The notes under the pieces were generated by a model, which was given only the letters and a program-made list of their open reading frames with translations, did not search any database and was not told the DNA's origin. Of a stretch of DNA of 64,000 bases, positions 11,208-44,109 are shown in pieces; positions within the stretch are counted from its first letter, which is position 1, and the number at the start of each line of letters is the position of its first letter. The DNA lies in NCBI GenBank assembly GCA_006384855.1, contig VCJN01002159.1, positions 44,566 through 108,565 on the forward strand, written 5' to 3'. This DNA comes from Tetraselmis striata (taxonomy: Eukaryota; Chlorophyta; Chlorodendrophyceae; Chlorodendrales; Chlorodendraceae). Both the position numbers and the translations under genes were made by a program.

Positions 11208-14200
11208 TCAGAGGTTCCATGGCTCGATGGCGCGCGCCAGCGCCTGCTTCGACTGCATGTAGGAGAGGAAGAGGCCGTAGTTGATGACCGGCACGCCGGC
11301 CTCCTTCATGTCCATCAGCCGCGCGCGCATCTTCTGGCGGTCGATCATGCAGGCGCCGCAGTGGATGGCCAGCTTGAAGCGGCCCAGGCCCGCGCCGGCG
11401 CCCTCCTGCACCTCGGGGTACTCGCGCCCGAAGGCGTGCTCCACCACGGGGCCGCGCCCGCCCGTGAGGCGCGCCAGCGCCTGCGGGATCTGCACCATGC
11501 CGATGTCGTTGCACTGGTCGGTGATGCGGTTGTGGTTGCACGCCTCGGCCACCAGCACCGCATCGCCCTGCGGCGCAACAGACGGCCACCACAAAGCAGT
11601 GAGCACCAGGGAGGCCGGCAGTATTTTCGCATGGCGCAAGCGGACGGGCGGCCGGGATATTCCCACGTATACTTAGTATCGTACTCGCGCACTCCCTTAA
11701 TGGTAAAAGTAAAGAAAATTTCGCCCCGGGACATCGGCCGAAGCCGCCCCACCACTTGACCTCGTGCGCCAACTGCACTCGTAGGTCTGGGATAGCCCGT
11801 ACACCATTGCCCCATTCGAAACCCCAAGGGCTAATGCATCAACCGGGTAAACCCGGGACACGCCGGGACAATATTGCCGAAATACATCGGCCAGGAATCG
11901 AACCCGGGTCTCTCGCATACGAGACGACCGCTCTACCGAGCGGACAAGGGATGTCCCTTTCTGGTAAAAGTAAAAGTAAAGTTCGCCCCGGGACATCGGC
12001 CGAAGCCGCCCCAGCACTTGACCTCGTGCGCCAACTGCAGTCGTAGGTCTGGCATAGCCCATAGACCATTGCCTCATTCGAACCCCTTTCTGGTATGCAC
12101 CAACATCACGTATAGTGCGCGTAGGCCTGGAAAGATGTGAAGGGGCGACGCGGCGGGGACGAACTCCGAAGGGCGGACATCGCCATCACTTGCGCACTTC
12201 GTACACAGCTAAAACCCTAAAACCCTAAAAATGAGAAGGCATCACGCGCCGCGGCACAGCAAAAGGAGAAGCGTTGTTGCAATAAATATTGTATGGGAAG
12301 GCGGAAATGCACCTGACTGAATAGTCATAATGAATTGTAATCTAAGAATAAAGCGCAATGAAATGTCAGTAGTGAGAATATTTCGGATTTGATGGGAAAA
12401 TAACTACCCGAATATGGACTATGTTGATGTGAGGTGAATATATCAGATGTTGTAACCTTACAAGATGGAGATAGTAAATGTGGCGCTTTCCCAAGCCGCC
12501 GCTGCTGATGGCGATGACACCAGGAGTCCCAGGTATGTCTTGCGAGAGAGGGAGGGAGGGAGGGAGGGAGACCTGACATGGAGCTGATTAAAGGTGGTTG
12601 GAGGGCATCACGCCCTCCTAGTTGGGTAAACAGCGAAGCCCTTCTCGAACGTGAGAAAGGGCGGGCCTCGCGGGTAAGCGACGACATGTCGGCGCCCGTA
12701 ACTATCACGAGTCCGCCAGGTGGGCCCGGAGTCCCATGGACTTCATCCACGGGCTACCGTGTGTTGCGCCCGAGGGTGAAGTGCCCGCAGCTACGTGTCA
12801 CAAAGGTTACTCTCTATCTTTTCGCTCTAGATATGTTGCGAAGTGTGCACCCGGCGCCATCATCGCATATAAATAAGAATAACGGCGCCGCGGCATCTCA
12901 TAGCGGATTGATCTCATCTCATAGCGGATTGATAGGCAATATTGCCTATCAATCCGGGAGCTCAAGCAGCGGGCTCCAAAGCGTCCGTCCCCAAGGCGTG
13001 CATACCTCCTTCAGCGTCTCCAGCGCTGCCACGCCGTCCACAAACGTCTGCAGCTGCCCGCCGCTCATCCGGTTGACCATCGCAATGCTGAAAGTTGTGA
13101 AGGGCACCAGCGGGGCGCCGTCGGGGGACAGCGTCCACGGGTGCAGGATGTCCACCGCCTGGCGGGCGCCGCCGGGATGATGCCGCACCGGGTCGGCCAT
13201 GAGTTGGGGCTCAGCCGCAAAGCGCGGCGCCTATTCTGGGACGAATCTCGCGCTCTCCGTGTCGCGAAATAGCGAGACTAGTACTTTGTGCAGTCTGTCG
13301 CAGTCGATGCAATGTACTTGTACTGCAAACTGCATGTACTGCCTTGCCCCGTGTACTGTTGTCGGCCGGCAATTCATCGTTTCTCCAACGCTTTTCATAA
13401 AAGTAACGCATATACTAAAGATTATTCCGGCCTGGCGGCACCAATAAACTGGCGGACCACTGGCAAAACCTTTGCGGCGTCTGCAACTGCGACCATGCGG
13501 CCTTTCAACGACGAATCGTTTGAAATTTGAAATTTGTTACACCTAAATCAAGTTTTTGCCTTGACAAGCTGTCCTTACGCCGCGGCAGGGAAGGCCCGCC
13601 TTGTCCACCCCGCACAGGGTCCGGTAATTATAGGGCGCACGGCGTGGCCTCTGGTGGGCAACGCGACTATGTTGCAGTACATGTACGAATTTTGCATCGG
13701 TGGCGGTGCAGTACCTGTACACTACGCGCGATAAGTCATGCGGGGGTTTACGCGCGCACGCGGTCGGGGGCGCCAACCTGTACGCGCTAGCCCGACCGCA
13801 GAAACCCGGTCGAATCGTTACATATGTCGCGCTGGGCAGCATCCACTCAGTTTTACCACTACCCGTACGAGCATAACGAAACTGCGTCCGGCGAAAATAA
13901 TTAAAAAAACATCATCTGCTGGCCCGGTGAAGTGGGTGTTGTCACGGTAGGTAGTGCGGAAGGAAGAGGGGGCGGGTTTCCAGGTATGATCGGCCCCGGA
14001 AGGAGCCCCTCCCATCCTAATATGATTGATAGTACCCAAACACCATCGTAATATGTTTGAAAGTACACAAACAACCCACAAGTCAGTATGTTATGCAGTA
14101 CATCTGGCGATGAAATCCGGGAGACTCTCGAAAACCGGATGGAAAAATAAAAATGGCATCATGAAAGATGATAGCGGCTCTAGAGCTTCATTGTGAGCCG

Positions 14201-17200
14201 ATGTTTGCCTATTGATTTGTTTTATGAAATTTGATGGGCTGCGGCGGTACAACACCAGCAGTGCGCCGAGGACTCACACACGCCCACGACGCTCAGTAAT
14301 ATAAATGGGCTCGTCCGTACAGGCACAGGGAGAGGCACCGTGATGCCGGACGGCAAAGCGAACCGTACGCCGACGGCCCCTCTCCATATTCCGCTGGCGC
14401 GCCCACCTGGGAGTCTGTGACGATGATCTTGGGGCCGTCGTGCTCGAGCACGGGGCGCAGAGCGCGCATGAAGCGGCGCCGCTCGGCGGCCACCTCGGCG
14501 GGGTCGGCGCTGCGCGCCATGTTGAGGTTCATGCGGTATGCCACGGTGGTCGCAAAGTGGCGGATGGCCTCCTCCTGCACCAGCGCCTGCGCCGCACGAG
14601 CGCGCCAGCAAGAAACGAGCAGGCAAAGTCAGCCAGCTGACATCAGACGGGGCAATGGCGGCCTATGTTTCCCCGTTTTTTACGCGGCCGGGGCGCTATA
14701 CACCTGTGTGCATCGCAGGTCGGCCAACCCTGCTATATAGTAGCGCGTGTAGGTGGCAGAAGCTTGGAATGGTGGTAGTGCCTGCCCTGGCCATGTTTTG
14801 CCACCCTCCTAGCGTTTTCCAATGATAATACCTCCAGAGTATTATAATTTGTTTCTTACATCAGTGCTTCAACATATGCGCACTACAAACCGAACTAAAA
14901 GCAAGTATGAAACGTTGCCAGTAAAAGAGAGACGTAAGACTTTTATAGAGCAGAGAGACTATCTAAAGAGAGACCACTATAATTCTCCTGCTATTATCCA
15001 GCGAAGCGTCGATTTTTCGGCGGTGAGCTTTATTGCCGTACGGGTACCCGCATAGTGAAGCGGATCGGGCCCATAGGTGCGTGACTAAAGCGCTTATCTA
15101 CTGGCATTACTACTCAGTGCTATAATCCACCCACCCACCCGCCCGCCCACGGTCCTTAATTACACAGCCGCCCGATTACGATCTCACGGTTGGGAGGCTA
15201 TGAGTACTGGTACTCGCTACTCGCTGCTGGTAATGGAAAAAACTCTGGTACTTCAAAGCGCTGGCAATGCGAACGCTCGCTGCTGGTACTGGTACTCGCT
15301 ACTCGCTGTTGGTACTGCTGGTACTGGATACATAATAATACAGTTGCTTAAGCTCTGTCATAACGAACTGAGCATTATGCGATGGTGATATAATTCACAT
15401 CGTTCTAAGGGCAGTCGCTAGTGCCGGCAAGGATTGTATCACCTGCTGCTGATGATTAGTTGATTACGGCTGAGTATTTATTACTGGAACGGGTGGAGAC
15501 TAATCCTTACAGTTCTCGCGTACTTGTGCCAGGATCAGAATGTCCGATCGCAATGAGATACGATATATGCGACATAAAATTGCAAATAATCCGGTATACC
15601 TCGCCATCGTACCTACCACTAGTGGTACTAAACTACTAACTAAGAACGCGTAGTAATCGTTTACGTTATCTCATCGTCGGCTTCGTCGCACACCGGTCCC
15701 CATTCCTGTATGTATTGCTGTATATTTTCAAAACATGCGCGTGAATGTTTGCACCTGAATAAATGTTTGCACCTGAATAAATGGGCAGTACTCTGGGCTG
15801 TCCGAAGGGCTGTCCGAAATCGATTCGCAATACGACTAAGATGTATCTGTCAGATTTCTTTCAAGAAAAGGCATAAATTATGAAGAAATTCCCCTACCTC
15901 TCTTGTTGGGTTGAGCGGAGGAAAAGGAGAGCCGCGTCCGAAATCGCCTGGAATACGCGAGAATCGATACCGGTAACAATACGGTTTTATCACGGATTTT
16001 TAGGCGTCCGTCCTCCGTCCGTCCGTCCTCCTGTGCTGCGTCTTCGCGTATGAACCGTCATACGTTCGATCTGTGCTCGTTTGATTTCTAGGCACACCTC
16101 CGAAGACGGCAAGATTCTGAATGGATGCGCGTGTATTCTAGCTCAGGCACGTCATGTATTCGTCTAAAACGCCAAAATAACGCGGTACCGCAGCGCGTTT
16201 TTATTGCTGAATCAGCATTCGAGGCTATTCAGCGACTATTCCTTACCTACACGGTAGTCCAAGTATGGTGCTGTAAAAAGGGGTCGCCGCGGTGCGGGGG
16301 CAGTCCGCCGACCCGGGGCCCGGCGTCCGTCGACGGACGGGCGACGGTCGAGCGGCGGCGTCCGGCGTCCGGTGCCGGTACAGGCGGCGGGCGTGGCGAT
16401 TCGCGGCGTGCCCGCCCCGTAGACCTGACGACCGGCCCGACCTGCGCGGCCTCGTGCGGGATGCGGGCCGCCTGTAGGCGGCTTGTACTGTATTGCTGAT
16501 CTTGCAGTGCTGTTTTTTTTTTTTGGGTAGTACAACTTTTAGCGGTGGGTTGGGTACCGGCCTTTTTGTAATGCACACCAGTAGTCAGCGGCCCGCTTTT
16601 ACGCGGCTTGCAGATTTAATCTGTTTTACAAAATAAATTAATACGTCTCTTTTGAAAAATAAATTACTGACAAATCTATCTAACGCTAAAAGCATTATTA
16701 CCCGGAAACAACAGTATTACAGGATCAACACTACTGTTCAAGCCGGCTAAAAGCGGCCCGTATCCCGCACGGCCGCACCACGCTCAACCCAAGAGGTAGG
16801 GGCACCTCCACAAATCCCCGGCGCGAAGCGCCGCTTAGTTTCATATTCATATTTCTAATTTTCACCCTTGCATCCGCGAATAATATGCTATAGTTAGTAA
16901 GGCCCATGTTAAACCCCACACCAACGCCGCGCCTATAAATATAGGTCGTGGGGCTCGTCAAGGACTACACGGGGTGCCGCTGTGATTTCGGAAGCCATAG
17001 TTCTAACTAAAAAGGCAAAACTATGGAGGGAAAACGCATTGATTTGTTCCTACCCGAATACATTAACAAATCCATCCGCCTGCAAGACCCCCGAAAACGG
17101 GTGATAATTTGAGGTTGCACGCTGTCCCCATATAGAAACATCCCCTACGGCATTGTCTGCCGTTTCGTCCAGATTGGACCCCTGACAGGTCGGGCAGGTC

Positions 17201-20200
17201 CTCAGGTCCGCAGTGTCGTGATATATCCTCTTTGGCGTTCGCACAGGTAAGACAGGTGGGCTGATGGGGGCAACACTGCTGCTCCGCAGGAACCGGATTG
17301 GTAGCATGACCCTGAGCGGCCCGCAGCGGTGACTACCGGCGCACTGCCGGCCGGCTGGCTACCCTTCCCGCACCGCAGCTGCCACGACCCAGACAGGGCA
17401 TGGAGGGGTACGGCGTTGGGGGTCCGGCTCCGGTGGGCCGGGGCCTTGCCTGGGGGCGCAGCAGCCGCATACTCGGCGTCTCCGCGTCCATGGGGATGTT
17501 GAGGAACACCATGGCCCGGTCCGACAGGAACTGCGGCGGGAGGCTGGGCACGCCCGCGGCGCCGCGCTTCGCCTTGAGGATCTCCTCCTGCAGGAAGCCC
17601 GTGATCTGCGCCACCCGGATCGGCCACCGGCCGCCATCTGAGCTCCCCCACGAATCGCAAGCCGCCCTCCCCCACTGCGCCACGCTCCCGTCCCTTACCC
17701 AGAAAGGACCGCCCCCATCCGTGGAGCATGCAGGCGCGTGGCAGGAGGCGCGCGTATAAGAGAGGCCCCCATTGTGAAGCATGGACACACCTTGTCAGGT
17801 TTGCGTACACATAATCTCGCGCATATCATGAGAGACAATGGGCTGATAGTCACAATGTGCCGTTGCGCACCGTGCGATTATAACCACAATGTGGCGGAAG
17901 GCTTACTTATTTTGGATAACGGACAATCCAGCCATTGGGTGGGATCCAGCGTGAGCATCAACACGTTTGATGAATGCGGGAGGCCACAGGAGCCCGCGTC
18001 ATAAAAGGCATTTGTGCGGATGTGCCACCGGATGTTATAGTTCTGTGGGAATACAACAGCTACTCGTAGGTATGACTAATTTAGTACGTGACAACCGTAA
18101 TCGACACAACGCAGGAGGAATGCTTACGTGGTTATGCCTGTAATGTCACCTCTTCCGCACAAGACGCACGGGCAGGCAGGCAACCGCCACCAGGCAGACA
18201 GGAAAAGCTGGGGGGGGGGGGGGGGGGGGTACCCACCGCGCTGCAGCCGGCCTCAGTGGCCAGGTCCGCCTGAAGCGCAATGATGTCCTCGGTGGGCGAG
18301 ACAGCGGCCTTCGCGGCCGCCGCCAGCGCCTCGCTGCCCCGCCCGCCGCGCGCGTTGACGACCAGGAGCGGCATGCTGCCGTACTTGCGCGCCATGGCCA
18401 CCAGGTCGGACTCCCAGGCGAGCGACCCCTCGCCCGCAGCCGCGACCGCGGCGGCGTCCACCACGACCACGCTCACGTCCGTCTCCTTCAACGCCGCCAG
18501 CGTCTTGCGCGCCTGTCGCCATGCCAGAGGCAGAGGAGGGGCCGCGCATCAGATGGCAGGGCCTATGCGTAGGTCAGCTCAACCCCCCCCCCCCCCCCCT
18601 CATTGATTTGCCAGATGAGATGAGTATCGCGCTCATGATGCCAGCAGCCCGATGCCGCCTGCCGCTGCAGACGTGTTGCATAAGCACGGCGCCCTAGGAG
18701 TTACCAGGGCGAGTGAGTTACCAAGCGAGTTACCAATCGACTAGGCGATTGTTAAGTCACCCCACAATAACCGAGAAGCCTAAACCCTACAACCCGTCAG
18801 ACAGCCGTCTCAATAATGTCGCAGCATCCATGGAGTAGCACCTCCGTTCCGCATCGTTGCGGGGGCAGGCCGGCGCAAGCAGCCCCATGTCCAGCCAGGG
18901 AAAGGTGCGCCGAGTGCCCCGTTTCGAGCATGGCACAGCGGGCGGCCGCGGTGGCGTGGGTCACGGGAGGCGTGGGGCCTGACCTTCTTGGAGCCAAGCT
19001 CCCCGGCTTCGTTGATGCCCGCGGTGTCAAAGATCTTCACGGGCCCGATTTCGTGCAGCTCCATGAGCGCAATCTGCACGACAGCGGGCGCCCCGCTCAC
19101 TCCGGCGGCAGTCACCTCGTCTCTGGGAGGGCGCAGCGCGCGCCGCGGGGCCCTTGCGAGACGCTGACAACTCCTTTTGATTTCATGCATTGGTCGATCT
19201 CAAACAGCGTGACGCTGCATGCCGGGAAAAGCGTGGTTTTCACCGCTGCGCCCGCCTTTCAAGGCGGCACTACTTTGACTCGGTGCACAACTGTATTTAG
19301 CCTCAGTGTGTACCGAGAGTTTTTGGTCCATCCTTCTCTCGTGCCATACCGGCACGGTCAACTAGTTCCCGACTGATTTCGAATTCGTTAGAGTCTGTCA
19401 AAAGCTCGCCACAGTGACTCGTGCTCGTTGCAGTGTGTACCAAGAGAGGCTTGTTCAGACACCGGTCTCCAGCTGTGCCCCGCAAGCTGCGTACATGGTA
19501 TTCACACGGGGTGTGGGTGATACTAGGGCTGACGTTTATGGCTACGATGCTGCTGAAACCCTGGAAACTTAATCTCGAGGTCGAATCAATCCCTAGACGC
19601 CTCATGGGCAGCTACTTTGCGAGCGCAAGGCGCGGACGCGATGCCGAATTTTTGTGGAAAGTGTACGTGGACACATGGTCCAATAATATTGCGGTGCTGC
19701 TACTGGATGCAGTGCAACCCTACGTTTCCAAAACCCTAGATCACGCCGGTGCCAGGAGTGCGGTGGAGCTAGCATACCTTGGTGTCCGCGGTTGTGCCCG
19801 GCGTGGAGTCCACGATGCTGGTCTCCTGGCGGGTCAACGCGTTGACGAGGGTGGACTTGCCGGCGTTCATGCAGCCAAAGACGCCGATGTTGGTGCGCGG
19901 CACGTCCGAGCCCTTGGAGGGCCCCGCCGGGGGCGGCCCGGCCTCCGGCAGTGCTGAGGCCGCGGCGGCACGGTGGGCGCTGCGCCGCTGCTCTCCCCCG
20001 GTGGCGGGCGTCCGGCCTGCCAGGGGGGCCGCCGCAAAACCTGGCGGCGCACCGCACCGGACGGCCCTCAGCCTAGTGCTCTTATTCATGTGCGTTGCGA
20101 GGACACGGCCCAGGGCCAAGCGTGGAATGAATATACTCCGACACGGCGCAGAGGGATACACAGGCGCCGCGCATGTGCGTTCAGTGCTCGAAATATACAC

Positions 20201-20506
20201 GAAATCCCCGGACGGCAGCGGTTGTGTTCCTACTCGAATGTACAGCGCGATGCGTCAATGCGCTACTCAACACGCAACCTCAGTGCCACAGAAGACATGG
20301 GCAATTCAAAGGGGAGCGGCAACAATGGCGCTCGCCGGTAATCAGGATAGCCGAGCACTTCCCCGCGGGCTCAGAGCGGATGAGTCAGAGTATTCATAGC
20401 GGTGGCACTAATGTCCATTTGCGCAGACAATACCAGGTCAATAATGGCAACTCCTTCTCCTGGCATAACGCCGTGACAATGGCCGATGGATGCCACCCTG
20501 ACAAGC

Positions 20507-20569
<63 letters not shown>

Positions 20570-23524
20570 CTCGTGTGCGTGCCAATCGTCGACGGGCCCC
20601 GGAGCCAGCACCAGCAAAGTGTGGACATCAGAGCAAAAAGGAGGCGGGGGGGGGAGCTCACTGTGCGCCACCGGGTTCCGGTAGTGCGGCGGGTCCGCCC
20701 AGGCGCCGTCCGTCTGCAGGGTCTTCCCTACGGACGCGATGCGCATCTTGAGGCACGAGGCGCAGCCGTCGGCGGTGTGGCTCACGCAGGGCTTGCCGGG
20801 GTAGAGCTGATAGTTGGCTCGCTCCTCCGTGGGCGTCATGATGGGCATCACCACGTTGGCGCCCCGCGCCAGCGCCAGCTCGCGGCCCAGCGGGTTGATG
20901 GCCTGCAGGAGGGCGGGAAACATCAACAGGCGCGCACACCCAGGCTTGTTCCACGATGGCATGTGTCCCAGGCGGACGCAAGCGCCTACCCTTAACGCCT
21001 CTGAGCCATGAGTACGTGGTCCGACCTCCAAAGGCAAACAGTGCAGCAATACCAGCACCAGAGGAAAGGGGGAGAGGGGGGGGGGGGGGACTGACCTGCA
21101 GGGCTGTGGTGGCGGCGATGTTGATGTTGCCCATGGTGATGCGAGCCAGCGCATTCATGGTGGTCGTGAGCTCCATCATCTCCTCCAGGTACGGCTGCAG
21201 CGCGGGAAGATCCGGGTGCCTCCGGTGGAAGTCGTCCGCCACCCAGGTGTTGGGCTCTGGGATGTATGGCCCCATGCCTTTGCAGCCGTATCAGCCACAA
21301 ACCACAAGGAATCAGTGCCCAGCTGGAATCGCTCGCTTGCACCTGCCCAGCACGTGGCACGTGTGGTACATTGTCTGGCACTGCCAGGCCTCCAGCGCCG
21401 GAAGCTGGAGCCGGTCATTCAATTGCGGCGTGCGTACCTATCATGTCGGCGCCAATTTCTCGGAAGAAGCAGAGGTCGCTTGCGAGATCGGACATGGTTT
21501 GCCCCGGGAGGCCAATCATGACACCTGTGAGGGAAAGGCATGACAACGCCATGAGTGCTGCCAAGCCAAATCAAACTGAGCGCATAGTTACAACTTGCTG
21601 AGAGGACTCTTGGGAAGAGTGCCATCCTGGGCCGGGCTGGGGGGAGGGGGGGGGGGGGGGGGGGGGGGGTGCCTGTTCCCAGCTGCAGCCCGGCGGCCTT
21701 GATGTCTTGCAGGCAGCGCAGCCGCTGCTCGAAGGTCTGCGCGGGCGGGTGGATGCGGGTGAAGAGGTCCGGGTTGGAGGACTCGATGCGGAGGAGGTAG
21801 CGCGCAGCGCCCGACTCGCGCAGCTCCTGCAGCCTCGGCAGCGAGAGCTCGCCGATGGAGAGCGCAACGCAGAGGCCCACATCTGCCGTCTCCACTGGCA
21901 CAACCTTGCACATCTGGCTCTATAGAATGGGGAAATTGCACAGACACATCGGTGCAAGCCCATTAAGTATGATGGTGCTCCTATCTTCACAGCATTGCCT
22001 AAAGTAATGACTATAAGCGGTGTAAACTTGAGACTGAGTGCAGAAGCTTCCAACTGGTGTGGCGTGATGGAATTACTGGAGGCTGTGGCCATTGCCGGTC
22101 TGCATCATCCGGATTGCATGTAGTAAGATATGTGAATGAGTGCAATTGTGATGTCTAAGGTGTCACCCATTTCGCATACTCTAGGTGGGATATAGGGTAT
22201 TGGCCTCCATTATGTGTGTCGTCAAATCATGGAAGAGCGCATAAGACGATGTAACACTAAGTGGGTACAGTAATAAGGCCGCACCGGCGGAACGCCTGGC
22301 AATCTGCCGGTGGCAGACAGCTCCGAAGCGATGGTTTCCTCTCGAATGCGCCGCACAACCCGATTGACAAACCTCAGGCGCTGTGGTGTTCGGAGCTCGC
22401 CCGACTGCAGCATGATGGTGCCCATCTTGTGGGCAAAGGCCGAGTGCGCCACCTTCAGAATTTCGTCCTCGCTCATCATATACCTTTGCACCACCAATTG
22501 TTATAATAAATTAAATGATTCCGGTCCGAGAGTGCAGATTGGCTGGAGGCTGAGGCCACGGTGATCTGTGGCTTTGATATGCATAATGCATGATGGCAGC
22601 CCCATACCTTTTAATCCCGGGTTGGTACTTGCGGATGCCACAGTAGCCGCAATCATTTTGGCAGACGTTGGAAAACTCGACAATGCCTGAGTGTCGGGTT
22701 GCAGATACAAGCGATAAATTGAGCATGTTACGCAAGCGATTGCGGGGCACAGCGACTCGTGCTACCCGTGAACGTGGGCGAGACGGCGACGATAGTAGGC
22801 CGCCACTGTCGAGTAAATTGCGCTGAAGCGAAGCAGGGAGTCGTCTATACATTGATATTGATACAAGGAGCACTAAGTAAGGATCTCTATAGACAACGAC
22901 ATTTTGTGCGTCGGTGGTATGTCGACTAGGCGACGGGCAGAAGCATGTATCGACTCAGCAGGGAAACTGCACGGGGTAGCTCGGGGGAAGAGGGGGTATG
23001 ACTTGACGTGCTGACAGCAGTAGCAACAATACCCGCTGAGTGCACAGGATCAGCGTCACGGGCTTATTGCCGCGATATGCCTTACCTCGCTGGAACACTT
23101 TATCCCCGAAAAATCGGGTGGACACGCTCTCGGCATGCATATACAGGGCAGAGCGCAATAGATGGCCGTCGTCGACGTTTATGTTTCCGGTCCCGACGGG
23201 ATGGGCGGTTTCCAGGGTAGCGGCCAGCTGCGACGCCGTCAGGTCCGATAGCACCTGCCCCGGCAAAACCGGCGCCCCCCAGTGCGAGGTGAGCACGGCG
23301 GCTGCCTCTTCCGGGATGAGAGTGTCTTTCGCGGCTAACATCTGATTCACGCGGCGCGTATGCGCCGCGTCAAAGGTGGGCATCTCGCCATCGGTGGAGT
23401 GGCTGCGGAGGCTAGCGGCCGAGCGAAGCGCGGGCCCCGCAAGCCGGGCGCTTGCCGCCACCAGCGCCGGGCGTAGCAGTGAAGTCAGTAGGCTGCTGCC
23501 GACACGAGTGATGAGCGCTTCCAT
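11208..23524 (-). CDS. HYDEF: Fused HydE-HydF [FeFe]-hydrogenase maturase (14 exons)
   Basis: Exons, 5' to 3': 23524-23086, 22686-22608, 22483-22294, 21904-21673, 21524-21438, 21277-21096, 20902-20662, 20040-19778, 19073-18984, 18512-18237, 17605-17450, 14586-14407, 13158-13006, 11567-11208. All phases agree, giving about 975 aa. The N-terminus is a basic, Ala/Ser-rich presequence suggesting organelle import. The HydE half has the radical-SAM motif CQNDCGYC and MIGLPGQT. A linker of about 45 residues leads to the HydF GTPase: Walker [22 protein letters not shown]. The NKxD box is replaced by VVNARG. The C-terminal HydF domain keeps EACNHNRI and HCGACMID, the iron-sulfur ligand region. HydE processes the H-cluster precursor and HydF assembles and delivers the 2Fe unit to HydA. 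Introns 4 and 11 begin with GC. The gene is divergent from HYDG. The fusion is as I recall from Chlamydomonas, but with a shorter linker. Confidence 0.95.
11697..11954 (-). mobile_element. tRNA-derived SINE, near full length (HYDEF intron 13)
   Basis: On the minus strand the element starts with a tRNA-like head: ACATCCCTTGTCCGCTCGG, then GTAGAGCGG (A-box region), then a B box GGTTCGATTCC. A body of about 180 bases follows and ends in a CTTTACTTTTAC tail. It lies sense within the HYDEF transcript, in intron 13. Only a weak 6-base flanking match (TCCCTT) was seen. Confidence 0.85.
11955..12095 (-). mobile_element. 5'-truncated SINE with 12-bp target-site duplication
   Basis: Only the 3' body and the repeated TTTTAC tail are present. 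The 12-mer CCCTTTCTGGTA flanks the element on both sides (11955-11966 and 12084-12095), as expected for L1-mediated insertion. It sits directly beside the longer SINE at 11697-11954. Confidence 0.85.
12211..12230. repeat. Interstitial telomere-like units
   Basis: Two and a half CCCTAAAA units occur here, in HYDEF intron 13. The unit is the Chlamydomonas-type telomere repeat TTTTAGGG read on the other strand. Confidence 0.7.
12926..12955. repeat. Perfect 30-bp palindrome in HYDEF intron 13
   Basis: GGATTGATAGGCAAT is followed immediately by its exact reverse complement. The left arm overlaps a tandem pair of CTCATAGCGGATTGAT. It lies about 50 bases inside the intron from the exon 13 donor. 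Confidence 0.85.
13515..13720 (+). repeat. Dispersed repeat R3, copy 2
   Basis: Homologous to 10840-11045 in the same orientation. It lies in HYDEF intron 12. Confidence 0.7.
14735..14825 (+). repeat. Dispersed repeat R1, copy 2
   Basis: Homologous to 9235-9325. It lies in HYDEF intron 11. Confidence 0.75.
14855..14945 (+). repeat. Dispersed repeat R4, copy 1
   Basis: It matches 48817-48905 in the same orientation, with shared blocks TTACATCAG, ATATGCGCACTACAAAC and GTTGCCAG followed by AAAAGAGAGAC. Both copies could encode a short peptide beginning MRTTNRT, but no family was recognised. It lies in HYDEF intron 11. Confidence 0.75.
15200..15335 (+). repeat. Degenerate (GGTACT / CTCGCTACTCGCTG) short tandem array
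   Basis: The words TGGTACTGGTACTCGCTACT and TACTCGCTGCTGGTACTGG recur imperfectly. Shorter versions of the GGTACTGGTAC word are scattered elsewhere, for example near 24230, 44150 and 45972. Confidence 0.7.
15640..15870 (+). repeat. Dispersed repeat R2, copy 2
   Basis: Homologous to 9355-9560. This copy has a local duplication of GTTTGCACCTGAATAAAT. It lies in HYDEF intron 11. Confidence 0.7.
16300..16580 (+). mobile_element. 3' end of the hairpin-tailed retroelement, copy C
   Basis: GTGCGGGATGCGGGCCGCC, a hairpin around GGGCCGCCTGTAGGCGGC, and then a tail containing ACTTTTAGCGGTGG and CCTTTTTGTAAT match the right end of copy A at 25985-26100. Only the last part of the element remains. It lies antisense in HYDEF intron 11. 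Confidence 0.7.
16590..16790 (-). mobile_element. 3' end of the hairpin-tailed retroelement, copy D (inverted)
   Basis: The minus strand reads GTGCGGGATACGGGCCGC, then TTTTAGCCGGC and a diverged tail. It faces copy C tail to tail, with only a few bases between them. Confidence 0.6.
18210..18231 (-). repeat. Poly-C (sense) just inside HYDEF intron 10
   Basis: On the sense (minus) strand the donor GTGGGTA runs directly into about 22 C residues. Confidence 0.8.
20511..20572. repeat. (CT)n microsatellite in HYDEF intron 7
   Basis: About 28 CT units are followed by a short degenerate end. Confidence 0.95.
21646..21672 (-). repeat. Poly-C (sense) at the GC donor of HYDEF intron 4
   Basis: The sense strand reads exon, then GCACC and a C run of more than 20. 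The exon side encodes LGTG. The next exon continues VMIGLPGQT, which fixes the boundary. Confidence 0.8.
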
Positions 23525-24136
23525 GCCCTGCACCTTCTCGTCCTGGTATTAGCAGTCCTAACAGACAGCAGCTGGCTGTTTCGCTGCACGTTAAATGGAG
23601 ATGCCGTCACGGGCCGTGATGATGCAGCCAGCAGGATTCTCGGCTTGTTGGAGTATCGGAGCCCACTGATCTTCTCAGAGCGCCGTCTGATCAGTCACTG
23701 TACAGCGAACGATGTCCCCACTTAAGCCAGTGGGGGTTTCAGCGCTGTATGGATCCCCGTCGTTGCTGCAAAGACAGTTTTTTTTTTCGCAGTTGCCCTT
23801 TGCTGTGAAGTTATTGGCGACGGAAGTGGGTGACGTGGTGTGGCGGAGGCTTCGGACAAACGTTTTATATAGCGATGGGTACGACCTTTTCATCTGCGTA
23901 TATATGGAAGGCGGATCGTTCAGGCGGTCGCATCTTCGTTCGCCAATGGACCGATCGTACAGGTGACAGTGTGACACCGGCGCCAGCCCGTCAGCAGCGG
24001 CAACAAAGTAGGCCGCTAAGGAGTAAGGATTCTTAGTAGGCGGCCCGGGTGACTGGACGCGACGTCATCTACTCGATTCATCGGTGTTAATTATTATTTA
24101 TTATGCCAGTAGATAGTAATAGGCTGCGGTACGTGT

Positions 24137-24229
24137 ATCTCTACACTGGTGTGAATTACAAAAAGGGCAGTAACAAATCCACCTACTGCTAAAAGTACTA
24201 CTAGAAAATCAACACATCTCTACACTGGT
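24137..24229 (-). mobile_element. 65-bp solo retroelement tail with 14-bp direct repeats
   Basis: ATCTCTACACTGGT occurs at 24137-24150 and 24216-24229. Between them lie 65 bases matching the 3' tail of the hairpin-tailed retroelement (on the minus strand GTGTTGATTTTCTAGTAG to TTTTTGTAATTCAC). This looks like an extremely 5'-truncated insertion with its target-site duplication. Confidence 0.75.
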
Positions 24230-24667
24230 ACCAGTACCCATTTGCGGAAGCCGGATGTAATTACTCACATGAGCTGGCTGCAGAGGGCGATATCAGGAAA
24301 TCGCCAGAAGCCGGATATATACTGGCGTGCGACATTATTGCAATCCCGCCGAGTACGGGTGTTGGTAGCGATTTGGCGACGAATTGCGGAGTTTAATACA
24401 ATTAATGCCGGATTAACATTTATGTAAATACATGTATAAAAAGATACACATTTTTAATATGAGTATTCCTAACAGTTTAGTTCCCGGTACAGCAGCAGTT
24501 TAACATTAATGATTTGTCCCTACCGCCACGGTAGTGTCCAATGAATGATATCCGGCCCGTGATGTCGGCACTTCAGGTGTGTCGATGACTGCGACGAGGG
24601 GCCCCTGCTTGGCGGGATGGCGGCACTGAAGAGCGCGTGCCGCTCGTACCACTATTCGCTATTGGGT

Positions 24668-26100
24668 ACTCGTTTGGATTACAAGAAGGGCAGTAAAAAA
24701 TCCACTGCTAAAAGTAGAAATAAAAAATCAACACAAGTAAGCCGCCTAAAAGCGGCCCGCATCCACTATTGGGTACTAGTACTTACTGAAATATTCTCGA
24801 CGTGGGGTCGGCTAGCTACGACGCGGCGGTGCGCAAGGCGTGGGGCCGCCTTCAGGCGGCTACTGCTGGCCATCTCAACGCCGCGGATGCCCGCGCGATC
24901 GATGGAGTGGGAGGTTATGTCGGGCTCACAAAAGGAGCTGACAAGATTTATATACCATGCCAACAACTCTCGGCTTCATAATGAGGTGGCCACTTTCCCT
25001 GTCACATGTAGGGAACGGATTTTGTTCGGCCAAATTCACGCGGCGTCGGGTATGTGGACAGTGGCCATCCCCACCGCGCGGACGGTCATGACTCCACAAG
25101 ACGAGCTGCGGGAGGTAGCTGCCGGGTACTTCTTTCTGCCTAGCCCTTGCATGGCCGGCTGTCCCCGGTGGTTGGAAGCCAGATCATTTTGCCCTCGGCA
25201 GAACGAGCACAACCCCGTCACTGTCGACCTCTATGGCGACGCGCTCATGAATCTACCTTCCGGAACCTGGAGATGCTCACTGGTGTGTACAACACGATGC
25301 TATCGCATACGCTTTCCGTGATCCATGTGTTCACGACCTAGGTATCGTTGTACGCCGAGAGGTGGATGACTTTTTCCAACATGCAGTGCATCTTGGCAAC
25401 ACCGTACCCAACAATGAAGTCAAGGGCCTATTGCCGGACGCAAAGCTCTCCCTCCCGGCGTTCAATATCGTGACCGGGAGCTATGATCCCCGGAGCTTGA
25501 AGCCCACGGCGGTAGAGTTCAAGACTATGCGGTACGGGGTCAAGTACATTGCGGTGCCCCGGGCCATGGCTATGGATTGGTTTATCGCTATATGTTGGGC
25601 GACATATACTACGGGGGTTGGTGGTGCGGGATGATGCGGCGTGGCACAGCATGGATCCGGGACAGAAGGGCCCTCTTCGAGACATCATGGACACACGGCC
25701 TTTGGGACAGTGTGCGAGGCGAGCTTGGGGGTGCGCCGCATTGTGCGCGATGCCGCATGCTGGGCCGCGGATCAAGGTGCCCTCTCATCGCGGGTCACTC
25801 GATGCGCACCTATTTAACTCGCCAGGATGCTTAACTCGCAAGAGATATCCTCGGGGTCATGAGCTTGGTGGCTGCTCGAGAGCGTGCTCGTTGCCTGATC
25901 ACACGACGCAGATTCGTCGGTCGTCCGCCATTCCGTTGCCGAAGCTGCACAGCGTCCGTGGATCACCATCGCACGCTCATGCACGCGTGCCCGGACTCGT
26001 GCGGGATGCGGGCCGCTTTTAGGCGGCTTGCTGTGTGGATATTTTACTACTGCTTTTAGCGGTGGATTAGTTACTGGCCTTTTCATAAATCACACCACTC
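24668..26100 (+). mobile_element. Non-LTR retroelement C-terminal fragment, copy A
   Basis: The plus strand encodes, over several frames, the same protein segments as copy B at 44.1-46.0 kb. These include CRERI, AASGMWTVAIPTARTVMTP, REVAAGYFFLP, NPVTVDLYGDAL and DFKTMRYG-VKY. The D-x-K in the last, after PDAKLSLPAF, suggests a PD-(D/E)XK-like nuclease C-terminal domain downstream of a lost reverse transcriptase; that assignment is inference. The right end carries the hairpin GCCGCTTTTAGGCGGC and tail. The left end (24668-24775) carries the same tail and hairpin inverted, so the fragment is bounded by inverted tails. Several frameshifts are present. It lies in the HYDEF/HYDG spacer. Confidence 0.65.
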
Positions 26101-27861
26101 CTGGCGCGTGCGACTCGTACCGGCGCTACTGGTACCGCGATCTGCGCCGCGATCCGGCATTGCTATGGGTACGGCGTGTAATACGGGAATATTACGCGTA
26201 CGTTTAGTTATCCGCCGCGTTCCGTACCACATTTTCTACCGCCACACGTGTCTTCGAATGCGAAATACGAGTACCGCCGGTACCTGTACGACCCCCCCTC
26301 CGCCTGCTGCGCCGGTTAATAATTAGTCGCTATTTTTTTAAACTAAATCGCCGCCGCGTCATTTCCTCGTCATGCTGCCAGCACAGTTTCATGGCTCACA
26401 CGCGTAGCCATGACGTAGGACAATGTAGCGGGCTTTAGGGACATATCGGCGCCAGCAGTGAGTATAATGATGATGCGTTATAGCTCGAGCGAAAAGGCTA
26501 GATATTTCTTATTTCATAAAAAATCCAAATTCATCAGAAGCTTTCGACGAATCTGGACGTGCGCGCTACTGTATGCCAGAACATCCGGCGAAAGGGTTAA
26601 GAGTAGCGTAGCCTAAAATCAATCGCTCTGAGGCGACGCAACTGCGCGATGTCGACGACGCATAGCGGCACAGCCAAAAAAAGGTGACGTGTATTTAAAA
26701 TCCTTACAGCATAAAACACCGCAACTCCGTCATGTATTTTGTGATTGATCGCTCGGTCTGTCCGTAGTCAGTGCTGCAACATCAGATGGTGTATTCGCTA
26801 ACAACAGTAGTACTACCGCCCCTTCCACATAGATTGGAACTGATATAATATTAATGCTAGCTGTGATGATCTTTTGTGATGTATCTCACCGCCACGATAC
26901 CTGCTACGGGCACCATACTACGGGCACCATATGGATTTTGTCCCTCCATTAGAACGACCACGTAGGATATGCGCATATGTTTAAGCATTGATGTGAGCAA
27001 AAAGGTGAAAGACGCGGGATACTGATGGACAGATGGAGTCCGATGAGAGTCCCATTCTGTCGAGAAATATCATCCCCGCGGCGAATGTACCGAATCGCTT
27101 ATACTACGACGGCCAGCACCTACACTCGGAGTGCGTGGGGTAGGTTGCCTAACTGCCCAACAGATAGGTAGTCGCTACATCAATAGGGTGCTACGACGCT
27201 CATCACTCGTAGCGTGATATGATATATCATCGTTTCATGTAGCGACTAAAACATTAAATATGTGTGTCACGATCCAGCCTGGCGGACAGATTACTTAAGC
27301 ATCGTCGCGGATATAAACCATCGTTTATTTAACACGATGATTAACCGGCAGATGCCCTAAGAGCGCGCCCCGGCCCATATGTTTTTATCCCACGATTGAC
27401 GACTGCTACTCCGTGCCGTTGGTACTCGCACAGCAAGTGATTAGATACGGCGGGCGACGCGCGCGTTTATATAACAAGCAGTCGAGCTACATACGGGCGT
27501 CACTCGAGTTTCAGACGACACGCCTCACAGTGGCGACAAGTTCCAAACAAACCGCCCGATAGAGAGAAGCCACCGAGGATCAGATTGCCTTGTCTCTTCA
27601 CTTCGCCGTACACCAGTGCACAGGCGTGACAACACATCACACCGACAGGTTTACAACGAAGAGCATAGAAAGTACGTTTGCCCTGCTTAACTGCGTAGTG
27701 GGCGTATCCCGCTGAATACCTGTGGCGCTTCAAGCGGGCCTGCGCGAATCGTTCTTCCCAGAGGGTCGACTTTAACTGCGGTAATCTTCTTCCCCCTCAT
27801 CACTTCGTTGATTAGCGTAGAGCAGTGCCGCCAACCTCGATTTTAGCAATTGTTCGTCGCG

Positions 27862-30800
27862 ATGGCGCTGTGCGCCGGGGCGCTTTCGACGGTCCTTCGC
27901 TCCGCCGCAGCGCCGCTTGCTGTCGGCGCGTTGCGTGTACTGGGCGGCTGCGGCGCTCGCAGCATGGCGCTATGGAGTAAGGAGCTCGAGAAAGGGCAGA
28001 CGTACAAAAGCGCGGACGACATCATCCAGCACGACGTCATTGAGCGCGAGCTTGAGGCCACCAAGTCGTCAGCGAAAGACCCGCGAGCAGTGGGCGCCAT
28101 CCTCGAAGCCGCGCGCGAACGTTCCTTCCTTACCGGCTACAACCCAGGTACTGCAACGAATCAGGCCAGTGCGTCAAAGTGGCTGCTGCGGGCAGTAGTA
28201 TCATAAACCATCACGGGCCGGCACTCGCGTCAGTTTTGTTGTGTAGCGACTACAAGGATTAGTCGACGCTGCCCGCGTATGTCACTACCCGGTAGATAGT
28301 AGTGATAGATTATGTGCACTGATACTGCTGCCTGCTGGTATGGTTCAATGCAGTCGCTGCTTATTGTATGGTCGACCCAGCACCTAGCCGCTCAGCAACC
28401 TCCTCTGTGAGTATTATCGTGCATCGGCTGCGATTTTTCTCTCTGAATTCGATCGCAGCTGCAAGCGTACGGCGAGGTGGTTAGATCGCTGGATGTGCTG
28501 GTGTAAAAACTAAAAAGTACAGAGCGTGAATAACTCAACTCTGCAGTGTCCTCACGCTGCTTGAGACGCATTATACTGAAATACACGGCAGCGCCATGTT
28601 CGTGGAGTAAACGCCGTATACCTTCATATACTCTTCCACTGTTTACCCCAAAATCATCGTGATGCGTTTATAATGCAAGATGACAGGCGATGTGTGAAGC
28701 CTCATTGCGGCTGCTGGTCATCTCCCTGCTTGTATGTCACCAGCTGGCGGCGGCTCGGAGTACGTTCAAGGCCTCACATACAAGGAGTGCGCGACGCTTC
28801 TCAACGTGGATGTGGCCAACTCCCCTCTGATGGAGCAGATCTACGAGACTGCGTACAACATCAAGGAGCGCATCTACGGCAACCGCATCGTGCTCTTTGC
28901 GCCGCTCTACATCGCCAACCACTGCGTCAACAATTGCGCCTACTGCGCCTTCCGGGCGGACAACAAAAATATTGCGGTACGCGGCCGCTTTGGTGGCCAT
29001 TATGCTTTCTGTTGGACCATGCATTGTGCCTCTGCTGCCATGCTGCTTGTCCCCAGGAACGAACATGGCATGTCAACCATTTTTTACGTCTGTTGTGGTC
29101 AGTCATGTCAATAGTAGAATATGGGACCATTACCACCAGCCTACAACACGCTGCTTCCAGTCAATGCCTTGAGGTCCGGTCAGTAGACAATACGTACAGC
29201 AATGTTGGCAAACATGACTCCCCCTCATCCGATGGCATCAGACAGGCAGCCTGAATGCTGACGCTGCGCTGCCCTCCACCAATGCAGCGCTCAATCTTGA
29301 CGGATCAGCAGCTGCGCGAGGAGGTTGTCGCCCTCGAGAAGCAGGGCCACCGCAGGCTGCTCGTCCTCACCGGCGAGCACCCCAAGTACACCTTCGATCA
29401 GTTCCTCAACGTACTGCCCTCTCCTCCACCCCGCCGCGCGTGCACATTCGCTTCAGCGTGACCAAAGCCCTGGGCACCGTCCCTCCCACAGCTCCGACCC
29501 CCTTGGCTGAGTCCATCTGCCCGCTGCTTGCGCTCGCCAGGCCCTCAAGATCATCGCGGAGACTCGCTCCGAGCCGTGCGGACAGATCCGCCGGTGCAAC
29601 GTGGAAATCCCGTCACTGTCATTGTCCGACATGAAGCGTCTCAAGGCCACCAATGTGGTGAGCCTACGCTTCCCCTCCCCCTCGTCGACCTCTGTTTCAC
29701 CAGAAACGCCACGGCTGAGGTTGCTGTGTGATATACGTGGCCGCAAGTGCGCGTGCACACATTCCGCGTGGCAGCTCCCAGCTCTGCCATGTGCGTCAAC
29801 TGCATTATTGTTATATACCGGGTCATCCCCGTATGCGACCAAGAGCAGCAGACACCTAAGACCATCAAAGCGTTGCCGGGATTACGCTCCGCTCTGATTG
29901 TTCGGTGGTACAACCCAGGTGGGCACCTACACCCTCTTCCAGGAGACCTACCACCGCCCCACGTTCGCCGAGATGCACATCAGCGGCCCCAAGTCCAAGT
30001 ACAATAACCGCCTGCTGACGCACGACCGCGCCATGCGAGCGGGTCTGGACGACGTGGGCATCGGCACCCTGTTTGGGCTGTACGACTACAAGTACGAGGT
30101 CATGGCCATGCTCATGCACGCCAACCACCTGGAGGCCGAGTACGGCGCCGGGCCACACACCATCAGCGTCCCGCGCATGCGCGCCGCGGAGGGCAGCGAC
30201 ATCTCCGTGGCCCCACCCTACGAGGTGGACGACCCCAACTTCAAGGTGCGCCCTCCCCTGATGCTTTTTGCATCAATGTGGTCCTGTATTGGTCCTGTAT
30301 TCACGGGATTGGTCATGTATACCCGCACAATGTGCGAATCAGCTGGTCCTGTATTCACGTCGATTCCATTGTGCTGACCTGGACGCTCCCCCGTGTTGGC
30401 TGGCTGTGCTGCAGAAACTGGTGGCCATCCTGCGCATTGCGGTGCCCTACACTGGCATGATCCTGAGCACGCGCGAGTCGCCCGAGATGCGTCGGGAGCT
30501 GCTAAAGGTGGGCATGAGCCAGATGAGCGCGGGCAGCCGCACGGACGTCGGCGCCTACCACCGCCAGGACAGCACGGAGACGCGCGAGAACCTCGGCAAC
30601 ATGGCAGGGCAGTTCAGCTTGCTGGACGAGCGCCCGGTCAACCAGGTGGTGCTGGACCTGATGGAGCAGGGCTACGTGCCCTCCTGGTGCACGGCCTGCT
30701 ACCGCAAGGGGCGCACCGGCGAGCACTTCATGAAGATTGCCAAGGCCGGCAACATCCACAACTTCTGCCACCCCAACAGCCTGCTCACACTGCAGGAGTA

Positions 30801-30954
30801 CCTGAACGACTACGGCACCCCCGCGGAGAAGGCCGCCGGGCAGAAGCTGATCAAGGACGAGTCGGAGCGCGGCTTCATGAGCGACCAGGCCGTCAAGCTC
30901 ATGAACCGCAAGATGAAGAAGGTCAACGCGGGCGAGCATGATGTCTACATCTGA
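27862..30954 (+). CDS. HYDG: [FeFe]-hydrogenase maturase HydG (6 exons)
   Basis: Exons: 27862-28147, 28744-28976, 29288-29410, 29541-29657, 29919-30245, 30415-30954. All phases agree, giving about 541 aa. HydG is a radical-SAM tyrosine lyase that cleaves tyrosine to give the CO and CN ligands of the H-cluster, made as an Fe(CO)2(CN)-cysteine synthon. The radical-SAM motif CVNNCAYC lies in exon 2 after ERIYGNRIVLFAPLYIANH. The C-terminal auxiliary-cluster motif CTAC, with a third Cys about 22 residues later (FCHP), lies in exon 6. The N-terminus is Ala/Arg-rich and resembles an organellar presequence. ATG 27862 is the first Met in frame. The gene is divergent from HYDEF, which fits co-regulation under anoxia, although no element was identified. 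The last exon is unusually long (180 codons). Confidence 0.95.
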
Positions 30955-40477: not shown

Positions 40478-43400
40478 CTACCCGTTTGGGCGTCGGCCCA
40501 TTCGAGTAATGCGAGTTGGGGCAAGCCCCAACCCGCGGAGCAAAGCATTTCGGGAGTGCGATACATGTGCAACAAAAAAGGCAATGTGAGGGAGGGCCCG
40601 ACGCCATAGCTGGAAAAATTTCCCATTCCCAGTAAAATCCATGGCGCCGTGAAGGGAGGGGGGGACCCCGCGCAAAATAAAGGCAGTTAAGTCCTCAGGC
40701 GTTGACGCACTAACCTGACTACTAATAAAATCCATGAACTCCGGAACTAACAACCCAAAATTATGACGGTGATACCCCCACCGCGGGCACTCCACCAACA
40801 TATGTTCGATAGTCTCAGATTCACCTCCGCCACATGCAGGGCAGTGTTCAAGGAACCGCTCGGGCATGGCATGAATCCGGGCCAATCGGCGGGCAGTGGG
40901 AAATACTCGGGTGCGTAATTGTATCATAATGTGCAACCCGGCCACAACCCCCGCGGGGACACCCACACCGTACTGTGGCAACGGGTTTGACGCATAGGAC
41001 GCCTGGACATATATACCCCAGGTGTTATTGCGTGCTAACGATACCGACGATTCGTAACGCGCCCACACCGATGCCTTTACTAGTTTAGCGGCATCGCGCG
41101 CGGCTAGTGACCTCCACTCAAGTGGAAGGTGCGCCCCCTCAGCTAGCCCTACGTTCGCCCTAGCTAGTCGATCTAACCACCGCACAGTCCCCGACGTCCA
41201 CGTGTTAAAGTGCGCCCGACTTGGCTGATCTACTAAATGGGTTATACATGTATTCAAGTCGGATGCTTTAAGGAACGCCCGAGCCCGTGCCGCAGCGGCC
41301 GTAGCCTCTATGGGCGCAATATCCAATTCCCGCATCATCGGTGCAGTGGCTACCCCAGGGGAGTTTTTACCTACCCCAATGAGGCAACGCAAGCACTGAT
41401 TGAGTACAGTTTGTAATTTATTTGCGCCGCTAGTTCTATCCATGCCCCATACTTCACACCCATAAGTTAAAACCGGCAGTACACAGGTTTTAAAAACCGA
41501 CAAACGCACATTAATAGGAATTATGTCCCGTCCACCGACTAATACCGAATCGAGCGCCTCAATAGCGCGCTTACCCTTCTTAACCCGGTCGTCTACTATG
41601 TGTTGCATATCTAAATCCGACTTAATGACCGTACCCAAGTACCTATATTCATTTACAACCGGTACCCGTTCCCCCCCAAGCTGCCATCGGGCAGCTTGTT
41701 CGCGTAACGCGGTCTCGTCGGAATATCGGCCTAACGCCATCACCCAACACTTAAGTACCCCAAACCCCATAAAATGATCCTCCGCCCACTGCGAGAAGTG
41801 GGCGAACATGGCATGCAGGTTATCGAACGAGCCTGTGATACCAACAGCGTCGTCCGCGTATAACTGACATGGCACCCTTATTAGTGGTTGCCTTGCCGCT
41901 AATGTGTCAGTGCACCCTGGTACATCACATCCTAGATGTTCTACCCCATCGAATATATCGTTAATAAATATGTTAAATAGGATGGGGGAAGCGGGGCATC
42001 CCTGTCGGAGGCCACGCTCTATGGGTATGGGGTCTGATAGTGTTCCCGGGGCCACCCCTGTCTTGACCCGTACCATACTATCCCTGTATAAAGTTTTAAT
42101 GAAGGTAAGCATTTGACCCGAAACTCCTATGGCTTGTAGTTTTAGGATCATGAGGTACGGTGTCATATGCCTTCCTAAAGTCAATAAAACCCGCGTACGT
42201 GGGTAGACCTGCCGCTTGGCGACGACCCGCGATATCGAACAAGCTGGCGACTTGCATGGGGCCCTCCTCATTCCGCATAAAACCCGCTTGCCAACGGCGG
42301 ATTATCCCTTTAGCTTGGCAGACGTCTTGCAAGCGTTGGGTAATATTACGGTCATAAGGAGTTTCATAGCGGCACCCATAATCGAAATACCCCTATAATT
42401 GTCCATAACGGTCGCGTCGCCTTTCTTGGGCACCGATACTATGGCCGAGCTACGCCACTGCTGGGGGATATAGTTCTTAGTCCATATCCCGTTAATTAAG
42501 GCCAGCAATGCCTTGCCAAAATGGCTATTCGGGGCGTATATCGCCAATTTTAAAGCCTCTGCAGTGATCCCATCCTGCCCCTGGGCCTTATTATTTTTTA
42601 AACGCCTAAGAGCCTTGACTAGTTCCTCCCATGTTATATGCCCATTAATCCCGTTTAGTGCGGGGGCAATGGGTGGGGATGTACCGTGTCGGTGTTCCCA
42701 CGCCGCACGGTATATCGCAACCCGTTGTGCTAGGGGGTGGGGGTCACGCAGCAGCTCCCGATAGTGCCGCGCCCAGCACGCATTGATTTCGCCCGGCTCG
42801 GTATGAAGGACCCCCGATACCGGATCGCGTACTGGCTGGCCGTTCGCGCCCTCGAATGAACCCTGCCCCTTACGGAGAGAGCGCGCCCACTTCCAGAACT
42901 CCCGTCTCCCACCACCCTTCTTAAAATCCTGAACCGCTTTTAGCACGGCTCGCTCCCTCTGGCGGCGGCGGTTATTACGTACTAGTGTCCGGACCCTATG
43001 CCGTGCAACAACATAATGTGCCGACGCTAGAGCGGCATCCCGAGGGCCCCTAGTCCCCCGGCACGCCATAAAGGCCATGCGCCGACGATTAATCGCACCT
43101 AGGATAGACCGTTGGAGCGGCGGCCCTAGGCCACGACGCCTGGGCTTGGTAACAGCCCCTACCCCACGCGCCGCCGACCATATTGCCTGGATAAAGTGGT
43201 CGGCGCCGGTGTCTAGGGATCCCCCCCCTCCCGAGGGCCCGCCGTCTACAGGTGGGTCATCTAGAGGGGTGAGCACCGCCAACGGATTAGCGGTGACAAA
43301 ATCGTGGAACGGCTTGGGCCATTCAGAGGGAGAGTCACCGTGGGCCGGTTTGGGAATGGACCTTGCAGACATGCGTTCATGCAGGGGAGGTGGACAGGCA

Positions 43401-44103
43401 TCCTCACGGATGGCGCCCATGGGGAAAGAAGACAGGACAGGGAAGTGATCGGAGGTGTCCCAAGAGTAGTCCACCCATGCCGAGGGCGAGAGAGGGGGGG
43501 GAGGGCCTATGGTGGGAGGCCATGCGATGAAGTGGTCGAGAACGCGGCAGCTGCCCCTCCGGCAAGTACCCCGTTCGCGCGCCGATGCATCCCGCGGCCA
43601 CATGGGCTTACCGCCGAGAAGGCACCGCCAACGCCTGAGTAGAGCCGTCAACTCCCTTTCATCCATGTTCCAATCCCCCCCCACCACGATCATATCCCTC
43701 GGATAATTCGTATGAAGCCGCGCCAACTCTTCGCGCAGGCGGTCCCGATACGGTTCCCCCTGTGAGCCGGTGGGCAAATAGGCCGAGATAAATATAGTGG
43801 CCGCGGAGTCGCTGCAACCTCCCCCCACCCGGACACAGGTCCAACATGGGTGGGGCGCGCCGACTGCCCGCGCCCGGTACGGCGACCGGACTAACACACA
43901 ACACCCACATTCCGATGCAACGCGGTCCCCGAACGAATAGTAGTCCGAGTACCCATTAAAACGCACTCGCATATCGGTCGCCCTAACCGTGGTCTCCTGA
44001 ATGAGCAGAACATCTACAGATCGCTCGATCAGCAACGCGCCAACATCCTCCACCTTAGAAGACAACCCATTCACATTCCCGTCATATCCACTAGCGCTAC
44101 AAG
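40478..44103 (-). mobile_element. L1-like LINE, ORF2 nearly complete (copy 1)
   Basis: The minus strand encodes an APE-type endonuclease (NGLSSKVEDVGALL, QETT, GGDWNMDERE, SDHFPVL). A reverse transcriptase follows (NNKAQGQDGITAEALK, FIDFRKAYDTVPHD, RQGCPASPILFNIFINDIF, YADDAVG, YRYLGTV) and then a C-terminal Cys/His motif (CPACGGGESETIEHMLVECP). These lie in frames 44074-42302, 42332-42096 and 42271-40478, so two frameshifts are present, near 42340 and 42150. At the second, copy 1 lacks about seven bases that copy 2 retains. No ORF1 was seen. The 5' end stops beside the tail of copy B at about 44103, so this is a 5'-truncated, probably inactive copy. The L1-like clade assignment is by motif. 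Confidence 0.85.
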
Positions 44104-44109
44104 TTTTTC

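Follow-up and report, generated by a model that had tools for sequence, protein, structure and literature searches.

The window, which is the whole analyzed stretch of 64,000 nucleotides (C1749:44566-108565 in a 224.1-Mb draft assembly of 2903 contigs), very probably carries a green-algal type of [FeFe]-hydrogenase maturase pair, intact and still maintained, in which a HydE-HydF fusion (HYDEF) and HydG (HYDG) would be transcribed divergently. Counting for this assignment are stop-free gene models, family and structure matches, iron-sulfur motifs, a second copy of the cluster on contig C399, pieces of PFO in the assembly, and the parallel with Volvox in the available text of PMC4416025. Counting against it are the absence of HYDA among the matches found in the assembly, a HydF score under the family cut-off, the missing NKxD motif, a diverged exon 1, and a P value of 0.195 for the HydE part of exons 2 to 7. 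The intact and maintained state of both genes makes a working H-cluster pathway the likeliest reason for their retention. In the established chemistry of these families, HydG converts tyrosine to an Fe-CO-CN unit, HydE processes this unit, and HydF binds the [2Fe] subcluster and hands it on to apo-HydA. The HYDG protein, the HydE half, and the HydF half would act in the same sequence here, delivering to apo-HydA. Both proteins are presumably made, with a hydrogenase as their client, and the client HYDA most likely lies in an assembly gap or was missed by detection, or was lost recently.

HYDEF occupied positions 11208 to 23524 of the minus strand and HYDG positions 27862 to 30954 of the plus strand, so that the two genes were arranged head to head. 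The spliced model of HYDEF contained 14 coding exons (23524-23086, 22686-22608, 22483-22285, 21913-21673, 21524-21438, 21277-21096, and 20902-20662 for exons 1 to 7 and 20040-19778, 19073-18984, 18512-18237, 17605-17450, 14586-14407, 13158-13006, and 11567-11208 for exons 8 to 14), with a coding length of 2946 nt including the stop codon, no internal stops, and a product of 981 aa. The spliced model of HYDG contained six coding exons (27862-28147, 28744-28976, 29288-29410, 29541-29657, 29919-30245, and 30415-30954), with a coding length of 1626 nt including the stop codon, no internal stops, and a product of 541 aa. The preliminary description had proposed a fusion of 14 exons and about 975 aa facing an intact HydG gene of 6 exons and about 541 aa, and the rebuilt models reproduced the exon counts, the full open frames, the head-to-head layout, and the coordinates, with 981 aa for the fusion.

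Sixteen of the 18 introns of the two genes were bounded by GT-AG. GC donors, which the preliminary description had left unmentioned, were placed at HYDEF intron 4 (AG/GCACCC, after 21673) and intron 11 (AG/GCAAGG, after 17450), and at exon 4 no GT was present within about 60 nt of the point where the homology ends. Intron 4 entered a long poly-C run soon after its GC donor. Two junctions were soft: the HYDEF exon 3/4 junction, which lies inside a stretch absent from bacterial HydE, and the donor of HYDG exon 4, where an alternative GT three bases upstream would give 540 aa and close a one-residue gap against the structure 4wcx.

Family assignment and the HydE-HydF fusion

The HydE half (exons 1 to 7; 20662 to 23524, minus strand) was assigned from TIGR03956, T. 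maritima HydE-type structures, and motifs. It scored 260.2 bits against the NCBIfam cut-off of 254.6, and it carried the radical-SAM CX3CX2C motif as CQNDCGYC at residue 155 in a HydE-type core and a second cysteine motif, CX7CX2C, at residue 448. The HydF half (exons 8 to 14; 11208 to 20040, minus strand) was assigned from TIGR03918, the structures 3qq5, 5lad, and 5kh0, and motifs. It matched profile positions 6 to 385 of 392 with 263.9 bits (E 2.1e-78), under the NCBIfam cut-off of 325.55, which is a naming threshold for prokaryote proteins and does not denote a biochemical feature. The P-loop GCMNAGKS was found at residue 545, DTAG at 593, and the cluster-binding CxH...HCxxC motif (CNH ... 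HCGAC), aligned to 3qq5, from 872. At residue 660, the G4 motif NKxD was replaced by NARG in both copies of the cluster, at a place where 3qq5 has NKID. This replacement weakens the claim of a GTPase, and the homology to HydF thus stands on the other features. HydG scored 492.1 bits against the TIGR03955 cut-off of 312.15 (NCBIfam), with CX3CX2C at residue 156 and a C-terminal CX2CX22C motif at 454. The closest solved structures for the respective parts were HydE, HydF, and HydG, with near-full-length matches. Judged from these scores and structures, the three family matches are not due to chance. The earlier statement that all iron-sulfur and nucleotide-binding motifs that could be checked are present held for the iron-sulfur motifs, the P-loop, and DTAG and failed for G4. 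The first 40 residues of HYDEF and HYDG contained 4 to 5 basic residues, 9 to 10 alanines, and at most one acidic residue. This composition appears to fit the mitochondrial targeting that the available text of PMC12924338 reports as generally predicted, outside Reinhardtinia, for core chlorophytes, which typically have one maturase set.

The two halves of HYDEF were separated by intron 7 (20041 to 20661, minus strand), which had a phase-1 donor, a phase-1 acceptor, and a GA microsatellite. HydE and HydF lay in one open frame across this intron with no stop, both in the window and on C399, and a single transcript presumably joins the two across intron 7. Alternatively, HYDF could be a separate gene starting from the ATG at 20089, with HYDE ending independently. 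An open frame did run from 20089 through an arginine- and alanine-rich start into the HydF domain, and a free HYDE alongside HYDEF is described for Tetraselmis in the available part of PMC3897525. However, a hypothetical free HydE would continue into a tail encoded by the GA repeat before reaching its first stop, and the donor and acceptor phases of intron 7 match. A genome search with HYDEF returned 32 rows, of which each copy accounted for 14; the other 4, at other places in the assembly, were weaker and confined to the GTPase part, and no further HYDE was found. The signal TGTAA was sought in intron 7 and was not found there; it was present 339 nt past the HYDEF stop. TGTAA is a weak guide here because none occurred in the 646 nt past the HYDG stop either. 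Free-standing HYDE and HYDF were rejected as the main reading by the need for the GA-repeat tail and by the lack of TGTAA in intron 7, the latter a weak point, and we consider two separate genes highly improbable.

The preliminary description had held that the fusion and the divergent layout of Chlamydomonas are retained here, and the divergent orientation of the Chlamydomonas genes is presumed by us. PMC4416025, in the text available, documents a HydE-HydF fusion with a neighboring HYDG in Volvox, C. reinhardtii, and Chlorella variabilis; the combination is therefore not distinctive here, and among these species the same text gives the divergent orientation for Volvox only. The fused HYDEF beside HYDG is an already known green-algal arrangement, to which this locus adds another example. 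The assignment of the locus to a green alga was made from the fusion, the gene layout, and the introns. In Volvox carteri, as in the window, the fusion lies on the minus strand and HYDG on the plus strand, head to head; in contrast, that species has both HYDA1 and HYDA2 within 60 kb (Table 2 of PMC4416025), whereas none was detected in the window by tblastn or elsewhere in the assembly. C. reinhardtii and Chlorella variabilis, compared by their published descriptions, likewise have a fused HYDEF with HYDG close by, but they have HYDA genes (PMC4416025, PMC3897525, as excerpted). Tetraselmis GSL1 resembles the present locus, with an HYDEF of 997 aa, an HYDG of 541 aa, and an intron at the fusion junction, but its transcriptome also held a free HYDE and one HYDA (PMC3897525, in the sections available), neither of which was found here. 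Bacterial HydE, HydF, and HydG (PDB 3ciw, 3qq5, and 4wcx) share the domain order within each protein and the iron-sulfur motifs, whereas they are separate proteins, and HydF of 3qq5 has NKID in place of NARG.

A second copy of the cluster

Contig C399 bore the same cluster in inverted orientation, largely collinear with positions 1 to 37538 of the window (37.5 kb, up to the end of C399). The contig is 54.5 kb long, and its first 40 kb was used for the comparison. Exon lengths were equal in all 20 exons (14 of 14 for HYDEF and 6 of 6 for HYDG), the splice dinucleotides were kept at 18 of 18 introns including both GC donors, and each frame had a single terminal stop. Between the copies, the coding exons showed no indels and 62 substitutions in 4572 nt, and the introns showed 88 indels and 321 substitutions in 9338 aligned nt (of 10838). 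The dN/dS ratios between the copies were 0.30 for HYDEF and 0.08 for HYDG; neutral simulations gave as few amino acid changes in a fraction of 0.0002 for HYDEF and in 0 of 5000 runs for HYDG. Both genes look maintained, with signs of purifying selection in their sequences. A pseudogene was ruled out by the equal exon lengths, the kept splice sites, the absence of coding indels, and the dN/dS ratios.

The differences were unevenly distributed along HYDEF. Exon 1 (23086-23524) differed at 30 of 439 nt between the copies and each of the other 13 exons at 0 to 3 nt, with a dS of 0.145 for exon 1 versus 0.016 for the other exons. From this pattern, the two ends of HYDEF seem to have had different histories. 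When the HydE part of exons 2 to 7 was taken alone, neutrality was not rejected (P = 0.195). The C399 copy may be an allele or a duplication; NAR1 and PFO each had one locus, whereas the maturase cluster was assembled twice. For the annotation of HYDEF in other algae, the two intact copies provide splice models that check each other and include two GC-AG introns.

Search for the presumed client hydrogenase

HYDA was not found in the 224-Mb draft assembly by searches with PF02906, TIGR02512, and CrHydA1 or, among the matches read, by three H-cluster motif scans. PF02906 at E 0.001 returned one locus, on C541, which had ASACPGC at P1 instead of the TSCCPxW of HYDA, DCLACSGC near the N terminus, DCLACSGCITTAE, and MACPSGCLNGGGQ at P3. 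We take these features (DCLACSGC, DCLACSGCITTAE, and MACPSGCLNGGGQ) to be those of NAR1, and the locus, lacking TSCCPxW and reading as NAR1, was rejected as HYDA. TIGR02512, searched at E up to 10, produced 14 rows that all stayed below the cut-off; 5 lay on C541 and 9 outside it. The best of all these rows was on C2001 (E 2.0e-11, profile positions 2 to 88), and the nine rows outside C541 matched only profile positions 2 to 88 or 331 to 371. Presumably, these nine are the ferredoxin-type domains of apparent formate dehydrogenase subunits, other bacterial oxidoreductases, an NDUFS8-like subunit of complex I, and PFO, together with one unrelated frame; on reading, the C2001 row and the eight others were accordingly rejected as HYDA. 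The CrHydA1 genome search at E up to 10 gave five rows, two on C541 (E 0.008 and 0.009) and three elsewhere (E of at least 0.35) that were low-complexity or unrelated on reading. In the window and the first 40 kb of C399, tblastn with CrHydA1 showed no relic of HYDA (best E 0.12).

The exact motif scans gave 41 matches for P1, 37 for P2, and 4 for P3, against 9, 4, and 0 for the reversed-pattern controls. The six P1 matches with a serine codon were read in context and were unrelated. Thirty-five of the P2 matches were one repeated 27-mer, and reading one instance of it together with both remaining matches showed all three to be unrelated. Of the P3 matches, one was NAR1 and three were unrelated. 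Motifs split by introns are missed by such scans, and the genome profile search scores the best candidates only and ignores introns. The identical 27-mer, ATGCCTTGTACCGAGAAGGAGCAAGAA, occurred in 35 places (C32 and 34 other contigs) and may represent a nearly identical repeat family spread through the genome.

The performance of the searches and the quality of the assembly were gauged with other proteins. A bacterial HydG profile recovered 4 of the 6 exons of HYDG per copy, although one of these did not score better than E 0.02. PFO, the usual supplier of reduced ferredoxin, was found in 9 profile pieces along C684:22058-28986, which covered positions 1 to 1150 of 1167 with gaps and contained no stops. 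A proteasome profile gave 37 pieces at about 15 loci, with like-scoring pairs grouped by eye, and 14 subunits are expected. Three of these groups matched without interruption and may be of bacterial origin, so a fair figure is 12 to 15, which is a rough sign of completeness from one family alone. Contigs from associated bacteria are probably part of the assembly, because C2001, C28, C2280, and C1869 had long uninterrupted frames that we take to resemble bacterial oxidoreductases, formate dehydrogenase subunits among them.

The preliminary description had named a search of the rest of the assembly for HYDA as a check and had supposed that the lineage can probably mature an [FeFe]-hydrogenase; the search yielded NAR1 as the sole H-cluster-type protein detected, and the supposition is plausible but unconfirmed, since no HYDA turned up in this draft. 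We rank first, at roughly even odds, a HYDA that is present but unassembled or unrecognized, for example, because its region was collapsed or because introns interrupt its motif codons. The maintained maturases and the PFO pieces point this way, as do the limits of a genome search that ignores introns and scores only the best candidates, and maturase sets are described alongside hydA genes in core chlorophytes in the available text of PMC12924338. On the other side, the same kind of search did catch NAR1 in short pieces with 32% and 52% identity to CrHydA1, the bacterial profile recovered HYDG exons, and the maturase cluster itself was assembled twice.

A recent real loss comes next and is a possible but clearly less probable reading, in which HYDA was lost from the lineage and HYDEF and HYDG are on their way out, the loss being too recent for damage to show. 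It is favored by NAR1 being the only protein of its type detected, the other profile rows being other proteins or low complexity, by the lack of HYDA among the 6, 3, and 4 matches read for P1, P2, and P3, and by the success of like searches with the HYDG exons and PFO. However, both copies of both genes were intact with signs of purifying selection, and the assembly is a draft of 2903 contigs whose completeness was judged roughly. It is most unlikely that HYDA is truly gone and that selection retains HYDEF and HYDG for another client, which would give the H-cluster maturases a role beyond [FeFe]-hydrogenase in a eukaryote. Other clients have been proposed for bacterial HydE, HydF, and HydG in equol clusters, which also hold a hydrogenase subunit gene (PMC8898433, in the part available), and no report of maturases without a hydrogenase in a green alga was found among the literature titles and the opening lines of abstracts. 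The unfound HYDA is an open lead rather than a result. Its possible significance lies in the mismatch between maintained maturases with PFO and no detectable HYDA. If this mismatch survives a better assembly, it would offer a natural test of the role of radical-SAM maturases without a hydrogenase or, alternatively, a view of the dismantling of an H2 pathway.

Intergenic region and flanking repeats

The intergenic region between HYDEF and HYDG (23525 to 27861) spanned 4337 bp between the start codons and held repeats, whereas about 0.4 kb separates the annotated genes of Volvox carteri according to the available text of PMC4416025. The two copies of the cluster contained different repeats in this region, and about 0.4 kb beside each gene aligned with C399. 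An inverted-repeat search identified a repeat of about 1.3 kb at 24736 to 26032 with 29-nt terminal inverted repeats (97% complementary). This repeat was 80% identical over 1218 columns to positions 45505-44335 of the window, and a further relative was located at 11575-12350 of C399. In the flanks, the domain scan took in 18 of the 36 frames that were 170 aa or longer. A LINE-like element at 40481 to 44266 on the minus strand consisted of two long, neighboring open frames with a reverse transcriptase and an endonuclease domain (Pfam RVT_1 and Exo_endo_phos). Another open frame on the minus strand, at 63129 to 63998, was retroelement-like; it contained the zinc-binding domain of an integrase, and its match to the integrase core was below threshold.
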